From: Deltaproteobacteria bacterium
GTDB taxonomy: Bacteria; Desulfobacterota; Syntrophia; Syntrophales; Smithellaceae
DNA length: 36,432 nucleotides
Assembly (NCBI GenBank): GCA_025361065.1
Contig: JANYAY010000144.1
Location: 1-36,432, forward strand
Reading direction: 5' to 3'
The notes under the pieces were generated by a model. It saw only the letters and a program-made list of their open reading frames with translations, did not search any database and was not told where the DNA came from. Made by a program: the position numbers and the translations under genes. Shown piece after piece: positions 16,299-23,851 of the stretch (the stretch's first letter is position 1; each line of letters starts with the position of its first letter).

Positions 16299-17075
16299 AT
16301 GCTGTTAGTAATTGATGTCGGTAACACCAATACGGTTTTGGGTTTGTATTATGAAGATAAGCTGGTGCATGACTGGAGGATTCGTACAGAGATTGACCAT
16401 ACCATTGATGAATATGGTGTGCTTATTTTAAATTTATATCAAACCAGCCGCATGAAAATTAATGAGATAAAAACGATTTCGGCAATTATAATATCCTGTG
16501 TTGTGCCGCCGATGCTCAATATTCTGGAACCCCTATGTGTAAAGTATTTCAATATCAAACCTTTAATTGTGGGTCCCGGAATTAAAACGGGGATGCCGAT
16601 TTTTTATGATAATCCCAAGGAAGTCGGTGCGGATCGAATTGTTAACGCTGTCGCCGCTTACGATAAGTATCACAAGGAATCGATCATTGTTGATTTCGGT
16701 ACGGCGACCACATTTGATTATGTTTCGCCTAACGGTGAATACATGGGTGGCTGCATTGCTCCGGGAATCGTAATTTCCAGTGAAGCCCTTTTTGCCAGAG
16801 CTTCCAAATTGCCGCGCGTGGAATTCAGCAAACCGAAGAACATTATTACCAAAGACACCGTGAGCGCCATTCAGGCGGGCATCATGTATGGTTATGCGGG
16901 ATTGGTGGACGGCATTGTCGGGCGGATGAAAGCGGAAGTCAAAACAAACCCCCTGGTAATCGCCACGGGAGGACTGGCGAGGATCGTGGCTAAAGAAGCA
17001 AAAAGCATTGATAAAATAGAAGAGATGCTGACGCTGGAAGGTTTGCGCCTCATCTATGACCTCAATAAGAAATAA
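16299..17075 (+). CDS. coaX: Type III pantothenate kinase (CoaX)
   Basis: The protein has 258 residues, the normal length. It phosphorylates pantothenate, the first step of CoA synthesis. Motifs of the ASKHA fold are [16 protein letters not shown] (Asp6, Gly8-Asn9-Thr10, phosphate-1), [30 protein letters not shown] (phosphate-2), GGCIAPGI and [12 protein letters not shown] (adenosine region). AAAGGAG precedes the ATG at 16299. It is followed after 3 bp by coaE, so two CoA-synthesis genes form a unit, next to birA as in many anaerobes. Confidence 0.96.
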
Positions 17076-17078
17076 ATT

Positions 17079-17690
17079 ATGTTGAATATCGGATTAACAG
17101 GCGGTATTGCCTGCGGAAAATCTACTGTGTCGGAGATGTTTGTCCGCTTAGGCGCTCATCTGATTGACTTCGATAAGATCGCGCACGAAGTTCAGGAACC
17201 GGGAAAGCCCGCCTGGCAGGAAATTGCCGATTATTTCGGGCGCGACATTTTGGATCAGGACAAAAAAATCAACCGCAATAAAATGGCCGCGATAGTTTTC
17301 AATCAACCGGAAAAACTCAAAGTGCTCAATAGCATTGTCCATCCGCGCGTTTTCGAGGAATGGGAGGTCCGTCTGGAAAAGATAAAAGCAAACGATCCCC
17401 ATGCGATTGCCTTATCCGATGTTCCTCTTTTGTTTGAAGGGCAGATGCAGTTTTTATTTGATCTGACGATTCTGGTGATGATTACATCCGAAGAACAAAT
17501 TTGCCGGCTCATAGCACGTAACTGCCTGACACAAGATGAAGCTCAGGCCAGGCTTAGCTGTCAGATGCCCATTAACGATAAAATCGGCTTGGCGGATATT
17601 GTCATTGATAACCGGGGAACGATTGGAGATACCGAGAAGGAAGTGGAAAGAGTTTGGCAGGAACTGCGCAGGCGAGAAAAGCTAAAGTAA
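17079..17690 (+). CDS. coaE: Dephospho-CoA kinase (CoaE)
   Basis: The protein has 203 residues. It phosphorylates the 3'-OH of dephospho-CoA, the final step of CoA synthesis. The N-terminus is LNIGLTGGIACGKSTVSEMF with the P-loop GGIACGKST; LIDFDKIAHEVQEPGKPAW, HPRVFEEW, LSDVPLLFEG and ADIVIDNRGTIGDTEKEVE are the family signatures. It starts 3 bp after the coaX stop without its own strong SD, so it is likely translated by coupling. It is followed by a repeat cluster rather than another gene of the pathway. Confidence 0.96.
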   Translation: MLNIGLTGGIACGKSTVSEMFVRLGAHLIDFDKIAHEVQEPGKPAWQEIADYFGRDILDQDKKINRNKMAAIVFNQPEKLKVLNSIVHPRVFEEWEVRLEKIKANDPHAIALSDVPLLFEGQMQFLFDLTILVMITSEEQICRLIARNCLTQDEAQARLSCQMPINDKIGLADIVIDNRGTIGDTEKEVERVWQELRRREKLK

Positions 17691-21108: not shown

Positions 21109-21305
21109 GAGAATGTGTCATAATTACCTTTTCGTCATTTTGTCCAGCCTGCCCAGGCATGCGAGACTGTGTCACAATAGCAAGAAGCGCGATAAAATCA
21201 GTCATACCGGCGAAAGCCGGTATCCAGAACCTACTGAAAAATACTGGATTCCGTATCGCGCTTCGCTTGTACGGAATGACGAAATGGTGATTACAACACA
21301 GTCTC
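21109..21305. mobile_element. MITE-like element, copy 6 (with extra internal left end; target duplication AAAA)
   Basis: The left end GAGAATGTGTCATAATTAC begins at 21109 and the right end GTGATTACAACACAGTCTC finishes at 21305. AAAA flanks both (21105-21108, 21306-21309). A second left end, GAGACTGTGTCACAATAG, starts at 21163 preceded by CCCAGGCATGC. The pattern fits a nested insertion whose right half was later lost by recombination between the two identical right ends. The rest of 20879-21523 holds AT-rich sequence upstream of the transporter and repeat copy B. Confidence 0.7.
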
Positions 21306-21445: not shown

Positions 21446-21523
21446 TAAAATAATTAAATCTCTGCCGGAAGCAGGTAACCTTGTATTTCAAAACCTGTCC
21501 TATTTTGTTTCTCAGGAGGAAAA

Positions 21524-23851
21524 ATGGAACTTCCGTTATTTCTTAAAAGCATTGAAATGCTGGCTGATTTACAAAATGAAGAACTTGCTCTCATTGCAGA
21601 AAACGCCCAGTTGCTGGATTTTCCCGAGGGAAGCATAATTATTAAACGGGGAGAATCAGGCCGTTTCCTGTGGGCGGTTTATGACGGCGAAGTGGAAGTG
21701 CTGCTGACAGAGGATGACGGCAGCCGGCGCACTGTCGCCTCATTAGAGCGCGGGCAAATCTTTGGCGAAATGTCCCTGCTAACCGGAGAACCGGCGGTTC
21801 TGGATGTAATCGCCGGGCGGGCAGCTAAAATTATTCGAATTCCGCGGGAAATATTTTCCCGGATCATCGCGGAAAATCCCAAAACACTTGGCAAATTCAC
21901 GCGCCTTGTCACCAAAAGACTGCTGCGCAATGAGCAGGATGATGCGAGGGAACGCCTGAAAAATGCGCACAGGGAAAACGAAGATCCTTACGACCTGAAC
22001 TTCACTTCCGTGTCTGAGCCCATGAAGATACTTACGGTGAATTGCGGCAGTTCCTCGCTGAAATACACTTTGTTCGATACAACCAAAACCTTGCCGCTGG
22101 TTGAAGGGCTTATAGAAAAGATCGGTTCCGGCGATGCCTCCTATATTATCAAAACGCCTGACGCTAAAAAAGAGCTTCCGGTCAAAGACATTATGGCTAT
22201 TGAAAAAGCTTTTGAGCTGATGGTTTCCACTATTACCGACATGGCTTATACGGGTATGAGAGATTTAGCCGAAATCAAAGCTGTCGGGCACCGTGTCGTC
22301 CATGGTGGCGCGAAGTTTCCCAGTTCAGTTAGGATCAACGATGAAGTGACCTCGGCAATTAAGGAGCTGTTTCCCCTGGCGCCGCTGCACAATCCTTATA
22401 ATCTTCAAGGGATCACGCTGATGCAGAAGCTCTTTCCCGCTGCCCCGCAGGTTGCCGTTTTCGACACCTCTTTCCATTTGGGCATGCCGGAAAATGCTTA
22501 CACTTACGCGCTGCCTTACGATATCTGCGAAGAAGAACAAATTCGGCGTTATGGTTTTCATGGAACAAATCATAAGTTTGTTGCTCTCAGTGCGGCGACT
22601 TTCCTGAAACGTCCTTTGGGCGAATTGAGAATTATATCCTGCCATTTGGGCAGTGGCGCCTCTGTTTGCGCTATTGATCATGGCCAAAGTGTGGATACGA
22701 GTATGGGGATGACCCCGCTGGAAGGCCTGGTAATGGGCACTCGCGCCGGAGATATTGACCCGGGAGTGATCCTTCATTTGCTGCGGCATCGCCAAATGAG
22801 CGCTGATGAAGTCGATCAAATGCTCAACAAGAAAAGCGGGCTTTTGGGAATTACCGGCAAAAGCAATGATATGCGGACGATTCTGCTGGCTGCGGAAGCG
22901 GGAGATCTCAGGTGTGAAAGGGCTATCAGTACTTTCTGCTACAGGGCCAGAAAATATATCGGATCATATATAGCGGCATTGGGCGGCCTGGATGCCCTTA
23001 TCTTTACCGGCGGAATCGGCGAGAACTCCGCCGAAATACGCGCCCGCATCTGCCAGGGTTTGGAAACCTTCGGCATCCTTGTTTATGATGACATTAACAG
23101 AAAGACTCGCGCTGAGCGCGGCCGGATTACCGATGTTTCCGAGCCCGGCTCCAAAATCAGAATTCTGATCATTCCGGCGGATGAAGAAAAAATGATTGCC
23201 CGGGAAACTATTCATGCTTTGGGCCGGGTAAGAACTGAAGATGACATCAAGAAACTTTATTCCCGGCCTATTCCTTTGTCCATATCGGCTCATCACGTTC
23301 ACCTCAGCCAGGAACATTTTACAATTCTCTTCGGTGCCGGACGGACGATGACGCCACGCACACCGCTTAGTCAGCCCGGCCAGTTCGCCGCCGTCGAAAC
23401 GGTTAATCTTATCGGCCCGAAAGGTAGAATCGAACGTGTCCGGATACTTGGTCCCGCCCGGAAAGAATCCCAGGTGGAGATATCCCGGACAGAGCAGTTC
23501 AAGCTGGGTATCGATGCCCCCATCAGAGATTCCGGGGATATTGAAGGAACTCCGGGAATCACAATTGAAGGGGAAGCCGGTACTGTTAAGTTGAGCAAAG
23601 GTGTAATCTGCGCCAAGCGCCATATCCACATGTCTCCGGAAGAAGCTCTGAGCCTCGGATTGCGGGATAAAGATGCGGTCATGGTCAAAGTCAAAGGGGT
23701 CCGGGAACTGATTTTCGGTGATGTTTCAATTCGCGTGCATCCCGATTTCCGGATGGATATGCATCTGGATACGGATGAAGCAAATGCCGCCCAGATTTCT
23801 GAAGGAGCGGTTGGCTATATCGAAGCTATTCAGCACCGCAACTCTATGTAA
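21524..23851 (+). CDS. Fusion: cyclic-nucleotide-binding-like domain + acetate kinase + PduL phosphotransacylase
   Basis: The protein has 775 residues in three parts. (1) ~1-150: a cNMP-binding fold with FGEMSLLTGEPAVLDV at 80-95; Ala91 stands where the phosphate-binding Arg is usual, so nucleotide binding is doubtful. (2) 167-565: a full-length acetate kinase with MKILTVNCGSSSLKY, HRVVHGG, FDTSFH, YGFHGTNHK, GTRAGD and GGIGEN (496-501); the known catalytic Asn, Arg, Asp, His, Arg and Glu are all present. (3) ~566-775: PduL with zinc-ligand motifs HHVH (590-593) and RHIHM (His700, His702) and RIERVRILGPARKESQ. PduL turns acyl-CoA plus phosphate into acyl phosphate; AckA then makes acetate and ATP, so one chain holds the whole pathway. 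AGGAGG at 21513-21518 supports the ATG. The frame is open throughout. Confidence 0.93.
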   Translation: MELPLFLKSIEMLADLQNEELALIAENAQLLDFPEGSIIIKRGESGRFLWAVYDGEVEVLLTEDDGSRRTVASLERGQIFGEMSLLTGEPAVLDVIAGRAAKIIRIPREIFSRIIAENPKTLGKFTRLVTKRLLRNEQDDARERLKNAHRENEDPYDLNFTSVSEPMKILTVNCGSSSLKYTLFDTTKTLPLVEGLIEKIGSGDASYIIKTPDAKKELPVKDIMAIEKAFELMVSTITDMAYTGMRDLAEIKAVGHRVVHGGAKFPSSVRINDEVTSAIKELFPLAPLHNPYNLQGITLMQKLFPAAPQVAVFDTSFHLGMPENAYTYALPYDICEEEQIRRYGFHGTNHKFVALSAATFLKRPLGELRIISCHLGSGASVCAIDHGQSVDTSMGMTPLEGLVMGTRAGDIDPGVILHLLRHRQMSADEVDQMLNKKSGLLGITGKSNDMRTILLAAEAGDLRCERAISTFCYRARKYIGSYIAALGGLDALIFTGGIGENSAEIRARICQGLETFGILVYDDINRKTRAERGRITDVSEPGSKIRILIIPADEEKMIARETIHALGRVRTEDDIKKLYSRPIPLSISAHHVHLSQEHFTILFGAGRTMTPRTPLSQPGQFAAVETVNLIGPKGRIERVRILGPARKESQVEISRTEQFKLGIDAPIRDSGDIEGTPGITIEGEAGTVKLSKGVICAKRHIHMSPEEALSLGLRDKDAVMVKVKGVRELIFGDVSIRVHPDFRMDMHLDTDEANAAQISEGAVGYIEAIQHRNSM

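Follow-up and report, generated by a model that had tools for sequence, protein, structure and literature searches.

PduL domains have been described as parts of multidomain proteins, whose annotation is mostly acetate kinase; in 2016 Erbilgin, Sutter and Kerfeld suggested that such proteins channel their substrate (PMC4784909). Two-domain AckA-PduL proteins are also present on finished replicons of Polaromonas naphthalenivorans and Paracoccus, where they are annotated only as acetate/propionate family kinases. A reading of the present DNA made from the sequence alone (the sequence-only reading) had taken AckA and PduL to be normally separate proteins, which these fusions show to be too strong. 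At the L146 and L148 loci, the Polaromonas fusion is flanked by fabI and a DUF3141 gene, and the annotation of Sinorhizobium meliloti RU11/001 gives the last stretch of PduL as a short gene of its own. The same two reactions are also served by separate AckA and PduL proteins, with PduL replacing Pta, in the propanediol-type locus of Rahnella victoriana and in Dehalobacteriia (PMC10327494). Like the published fusions, the protein studied here joins PduL to an acetate kinase and has no encapsulation peptide. Unlike them, it carries a CNB-fold domain and a conserved linker ahead of AckA; PMC4784909 mentions no cyclic-nucleotide domain. It also differs from the Rahnella victoriana arrangement, in which AckA and PduL are separate genes beside microcompartment shell genes.

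The window, by which we mean the whole stretch of DNA analysed, is an entire contig of 36,432 bases. It belongs to a 3.95-Mb draft genome (97% complete, 186 contigs) whose closest named relatives are Smithella and other Syntrophaceae/Syntrophales. The fusion gene (table 1) begins at an ATG preceded by a strong Shine-Dalgarno sequence (CAGGAGGAAAA-ATG), and no other in-frame start was found when the sequence 5' of the ATG at 21524 was read. Structure prediction, which the sequence-only reading had called for, gave an AlphaFold2 model of the whole protein with a pLDDT of 89.5 and a pTM of 0.88, in which all three folds were matched. The dN/dS between the window and five relatives was 0.06-0.14 in the CNB, linker, AckA and PduL parts, figures that cover only comparisons with unsaturated synonymous sites. 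The gene is under purifying selection.

Table 1. Coordinates of the fusion gene and its parts in the window, and of fusions with an eroded kinase site at other loci.
Feature	Position	Strand	Basis
Ribosome-binding site region, CAGGAGGAAAAA-type with AGGAGG core, adjoining the ATG on its 5' side	21512..21523	+	read from sequence
Single gene, CNB-AckA-PduL fusion, 775 aa	21524..23851	+	Pfam domains, AF2 model
CNB-fold domain, residues ~1-140	21524..21943	+	PF00027 E 1.7e-18; VIA-align; relatives' cassettes
Conserved linker DPYDLNFTS, residues 154-162, joining CNB to AckA	21983..22009	+	alignment
Acetate kinase domain, residues 167-565	22022..23218	+	PF00871 full length, catalytic residues, VIA-align
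PduL phosphotransacylase domain, residues 583-770	23270..23833	+	PF06130 full length, zinc ligands, VIA-align
Eroded-kinase fusions	L060 6001-8301; L064, L065, L067, L070 6001 onwards; L068 1380-3692		

Both enzyme domains are complete. Pfam placed PTAC/PduL at residues 585-758 (model positions 2-175 of 176, E 9e-76), and assignment to PduL (PF06130, NF011652) is supported by 254 bits in Pfam and by 259 bits against the NCBIfam subfamily cut-off of 209. The domain has the two-barrel PduL fold and aligns with Rhodopseudomonas PduL 5cuo at 1.1 A across 188 residues (VIA-align Z 28.4). In solved PduL, zinc 1 is bound by H48, H50 and E109 and zinc 2 by H157, H159 and H204, while R103 contacts phosphate (PMC4784909). 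The two HxH zinc motifs noticed at the outset, H591/H593 and H700/H702, are in place, and H747 supplies the remaining zinc-2 ligand. The counterparts of E109 and R103 are E652 and R646, a pairing made from conservation, order and spacing rather than from superposed coordinates; they complete the zinc ligands and the phosphate contact in the window protein. Across 34 aligned fusions, H591, H593, E652, H700, H702 and H747 are invariant, and the R646 position holds Arg in 31 and Lys in three.

The Acetate_kinase model of Pfam spans residues 168-560 in full (positions 1-392 of 392, E 2.9e-144). With 481 bits against cut-offs of 22 and 293 (PF00871/TIGR00016), the kinase part also exceeds the TIGR00016 threshold of NCBIfam, and its ASKHA fold reached a VIA-align Z of 54 to solved acetate kinases. 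In the numbering of the Methanosarcina enzyme, the window kinase retains the equivalents of N7, R91, H123, D148, H180, R241, D283, R285, G331 and E384, and N7, R91, H123, D148, H180, R241, R285, G331 and E384 are also retained in most of the 34 fusions. Residue alignment thus agrees with the initial claim of an acetate kinase with every catalytic residue, and likewise supports the placing of two consecutive reactions on one polypeptide.

The N-terminal domain was assigned to the CNB family by Pfam (cNMP_binding, PF00027) at residues 32-118, with 66.8 bits against a cut-off of 27.5. In isolation it aligned with CNB-B of PKG II at Z 20.6 (VIA-align, rmsd 1.6, 140 residues), and as part of the full protein it reached Z 19 to CNB domains. 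Its cassette sequence is FGEMSLLTGEPAVLDV, given over residues 80-97 as FGEMSLLTGEPAVLDVIA. The cassette Arg of canonical cAMP/cGMP receptors, which holds the phosphate, is missing, with Ala91 in its place as the sequence-only reading had stated, and we found the loss to be general: the position of PKA Arg209 is occupied by Ala in 11, Thr in 18, Ser in four and Glu in one of the 34 fusions, and by Arg in none. Gly81, Glu82 and Met83 are invariant in this set, glycines 43 and 46 of the beta2-beta3 loop are retained or nearly so, and the ribose-contacting Gly-Glu is preserved almost throughout the family. The conserved Asp94 was considered as a mark of the ligand and rejected as not diagnostic, because a CNB of the host that does bear the Arg (L120) has the same Ala-Asp-Val. 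The linker that follows the domain keeps D154-P155-Y156 in 32 of the 34 fusions, across phyla, and its motif was not found in the two-domain and free-standing AckA examined from the same order. The pLDDT of the linker was about 50 in a model of the isolated CNB and about 86 in the whole-protein model, which suggests that it packs on the enzyme.

The host genome contains a single PF06130 match, the fusion itself, and at 97% completeness it gave no match for a Pta/Ptb-family gene (PF01515) or for a microcompartment shell protein (PF00936). The fusion is therefore the only recognisable phosphotransacetylase of its host. With no shell gene in the genome or among the neighbours scanned, a microcompartment role was rejected, and the protein falls outside the BMC-associated subgroup of PduL, the only one that encapsulation concerns. 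Within the order, PF06130 is present in 39 of 149 genomes. Every full-length match sits in a frame of at least 480 aa, the frames checked being AckA fusions, and among the matches listed a full-length Pta is missing from 33 of the 39 genomes. The fusion holds the sole AckA in genomes of Smithella, Fischerbacteria and Aminicenantes, which also lack a Pta-scale PF01515 match. In many of the groups that carry it, the fusion stands in for the usual separate enzymes. Syntrophus aciditrophicus speaks against this picture: it was reported to have neither Pta nor AckA and to rely on an AMP-forming synthetase (PMC4992975). Neighbouring genes are conserved only in close relatives, which suggests a gene standing by itself; among the neighbours scanned, no conserved gene hinted at the ligand beyond that range, and an operon partner that might reveal it was discarded as a lead. 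An imperfect inverted repeat (21109-21305; 38-nt arms, 79% complementary) lies in the gap that separates the MFS gene from the fusion, and its short frames read like a dispersed palindromic repeat element. At 16299-17690 a gene for type III pantothenate kinase precedes a dephospho-CoA-kinase-like frame, which places CoA synthesis genes some 4 kb 5' of the fusion.

The reading that best accounts for these observations, to which we give a probability of about 0.72, is that of a bifunctional enzyme that forms ATP and produces acetate, and whose N-terminal domain is an allosteric sensor for a small molecule other than a canonical cyclic nucleotide. The C-terminal PduL would convert acetyl-CoA (possibly propionyl-CoA) and phosphate to acyl phosphate and CoA. 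AckA, in the centre of the same chain, would then convert acyl phosphate and ADP to the acid and ATP, or run in reverse and activate acetate, and acetyl phosphate may pass locally between the two sites. The CNB, coupled through the conserved DPYDL linker, would sense its ligand and tune this activity. In Pta-less genomes such as that of the host, the fusion would serve as the acetyl-CoA/acetyl-phosphate enzyme outside microcompartments. We infer the reactions from what is known of the two families, and we likewise infer that the CNB regulates the enzyme and what kind of ligand it takes. For that ligand we favour a non-cyclic small molecule, which we do not name, since CNB families without the Arg can take others, such as the haem of CooA (PMC2246266), and since nucleoside-binding PKA of kinetoplastids offers a parallel. 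A broader version, in which a widespread and ancient class of CNB reads a non-cyclic metabolite (for instance nucleoside, adenylate or acyl-CoA-related) and directly gates an acetyl-CoA-to-ATP enzyme made as a single chain, is put forward tentatively and may well go too far.

The CNB might instead be a ligand-free domain for structure or protein contact, serving oligomerisation or recruitment in an enzyme that is bifunctional and unregulated. Every fusion lacks the Arg, and the cassette of a second paralogue in one Syntrophales family (L134-L136) is more divergent still, reading GDMSVFTGNLVAFDY or SDMSIFTGNLVAFDY, with Glu changed to Asp and, in one copy, Gly lost as well. AckA-PduL proteins without any CNB exist in some Syntrophales genera, where the sensor must be dispensable. 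However, the invariance of Gly-Glu-Met and the near-constant loop glycines speak against an empty pocket, and the dN/dS of the CNB, at about 0.1, is near that of the enzyme domains. We therefore consider a ligand-free CNB somewhat unlikely; of the two possibilities raised by the sequence-only reading, another ligand or a purely structural role, it is the second that the retained pocket Gly-Glu and loop glycines disfavour.

Compatible with a sensor-bearing bifunctional enzyme is the view that the fusion exists mainly to channel acetyl phosphate between active sites. Channelling as such, which the sequence-only reading had inferred, is plausible: one chain holds consecutive reactions, the idea has already been proposed for AckA-PduL fusions (PMC4784909), and alphaproteobacterial AckA-PduL fusions group apart in the tree of kinase domains. 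As the main reason for the fusion we think it rather doubtful, since members with an eroded kinase are still fused. One Spirochaetales and five Beta/Gammaproteobacteria-labelled members have lost or altered several kinase residues and have intact PduL and CNB signatures. Examples are GTRxGD changed to ASRAGS, G331 to Asp, Gln or Ala, and E384 to Asp; in the L060 member R91, H123 and R241 are altered too. These kinases perhaps have a changed phosphoryl donor or are dead. The eroded site was found in four of the 15 genomes searched (one Spirochaetales, three Betaproteobacteria), each of which encodes a second AckA and a full-length Pta as well. Where the fusion kinase is intact or nearly so, a full-length Pta-scale match was present in two of 11 genomes, those of the Elusimicrobiota and of L093. 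Erosion only alongside a backup Pta and AckA is what would be expected if the fusion were fully selected where it is the sole enzyme, a pattern that is suggestive rather than statistical proof because three of the four genomes are closely related.

Could the CNB bind cAMP or cGMP without the Arg and, in the manner of mycobacterial Pat, couple acetate metabolism to how much cyclic nucleotide is present? The host genome encodes four class III cyclase domains and at least six other CNBs that carry the cassette Arg; the cell thus probably makes use of cyclic nucleotides, though not through the CNB of the fusion. The best fold matches of this CNB are cGMP- or cAMP-bound domains. Against such binding, the key phosphate ligand is missing in 34 of 34 fusions, and in PKA a change of Arg to Lys alone cuts affinity nearly tenfold (PMC2246266). 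The loss of the Arg in every relative examined, with the ribose-contacting Gly-Glu kept, makes cAMP and cGMP improbable ligands.

The search for the same domain order that the sequence-only reading had proposed found it widely. Genus, family and order relatives of the host carry an uninterrupted frame with 62-86% identity over the full length. The order recurs in Nitrospirota (Magnetobacterium, Magnetominusculus, Magnetocorallium), Fischerbacteria, Aminicenantes, Elusimicrobiota, Myxococcota (Myxococcales), Hydrogenedentes, Spirochaetota (Spirochaetales) and Beta/Gammaproteobacteria-labelled genomes; a scan of species genomes with the CNB and linker as query thus places it in at least about ten bacterial groups. 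Although the source is a draft genome of 186 contigs, neither an error of assembly nor a chance read-through across three genes can account for the fusion, because the uninterrupted 775-residue frame recurs, equally continuous, in more than 50 other genomes, on contigs of up to 917 kb and in the isolate Sulfurisoma sediminicola.

Several variants were seen beside the complete form. In fragments from Aegiribacteria, CNB-AckA runs to the edge of the contig, and in one of them (L054, 132-3863) a malic enzyme-Pta fusion lies just 5' of the truncated gene. Candidatus Magnetobacterium casense has a second gene (L052, 5971-7695) with CNB and AckA and without PduL, which keeps the DPYDLNF linker and has no cassette Arg. 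Seven Syntrophales genomes (L127-L133) encode two-domain AckA-PduL without a CNB. The divergent three-domain paralogue of one Syntrophales family (L134-L136, L144) has, at L144, a frame broken within AckA and a PduL frame that continues into a DUF3141 gene. In a tree of kinase domains with a small outgroup of free-standing AckA and the root drawn at the midpoint, all CNB-bearing kinases and five two-domain AckA-PduL kinases of Syntrophales formed one branch (98/98), within which the two-domain forms were weakly nested (80/76). This nesting fits a single origin of the three-domain form with later loss of the CNB.

How Syntrophales obtain ATP from acetyl-CoA is an energetic puzzle, and relatives within the order have the fusion as sole phosphotransacetylase. 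A genome survey restricted to pta would score the pathway as incomplete where it is present. If the sensor reading is right, Pta-less anaerobes such as Syntrophales gain post-translational control of an ATP-forming step. A CNB that has lost its Arg family-wide and kept its pocket is also a testable candidate for a new CNB ligand, and this one belongs to a soluble enzyme that is simple to assay.

Two known proteins bear comparison with the sensor. Mycobacterial Pat (Rv0998) likewise joins an N-terminal CNB to an enzyme touching acetyl-CoA metabolism, and the fusion CNB aligned with it (4avb) at Z 17.5 but with an rmsd of 8.6 over 150 residues (VIA-align). Pat, however, was solved with cAMP and modifies proteins, whereas the fusion CNB is without the Arg and its enzymes are metabolic. 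The clearest parallel is the nucleoside-binding PKA regulatory subunits of kinetoplastids (PMC10959531), in which the cassette Arg is replaced by Thr or Asn and the following Ala by Val, as in many fusions. The match is partial, and a pocket of the kinetoplastid type was rejected: those subunits bind ribose through a Glu at the position of PKA Ala202, where 33 of the 34 fusions have Ser84. In the openly searchable literature we found no description of a CNB-bearing AckA-PduL. The AckA-PduL fusion itself is already known and the CNB module is the undescribed part, so that what we report is a sensor-bearing, widespread form of a known fusion.
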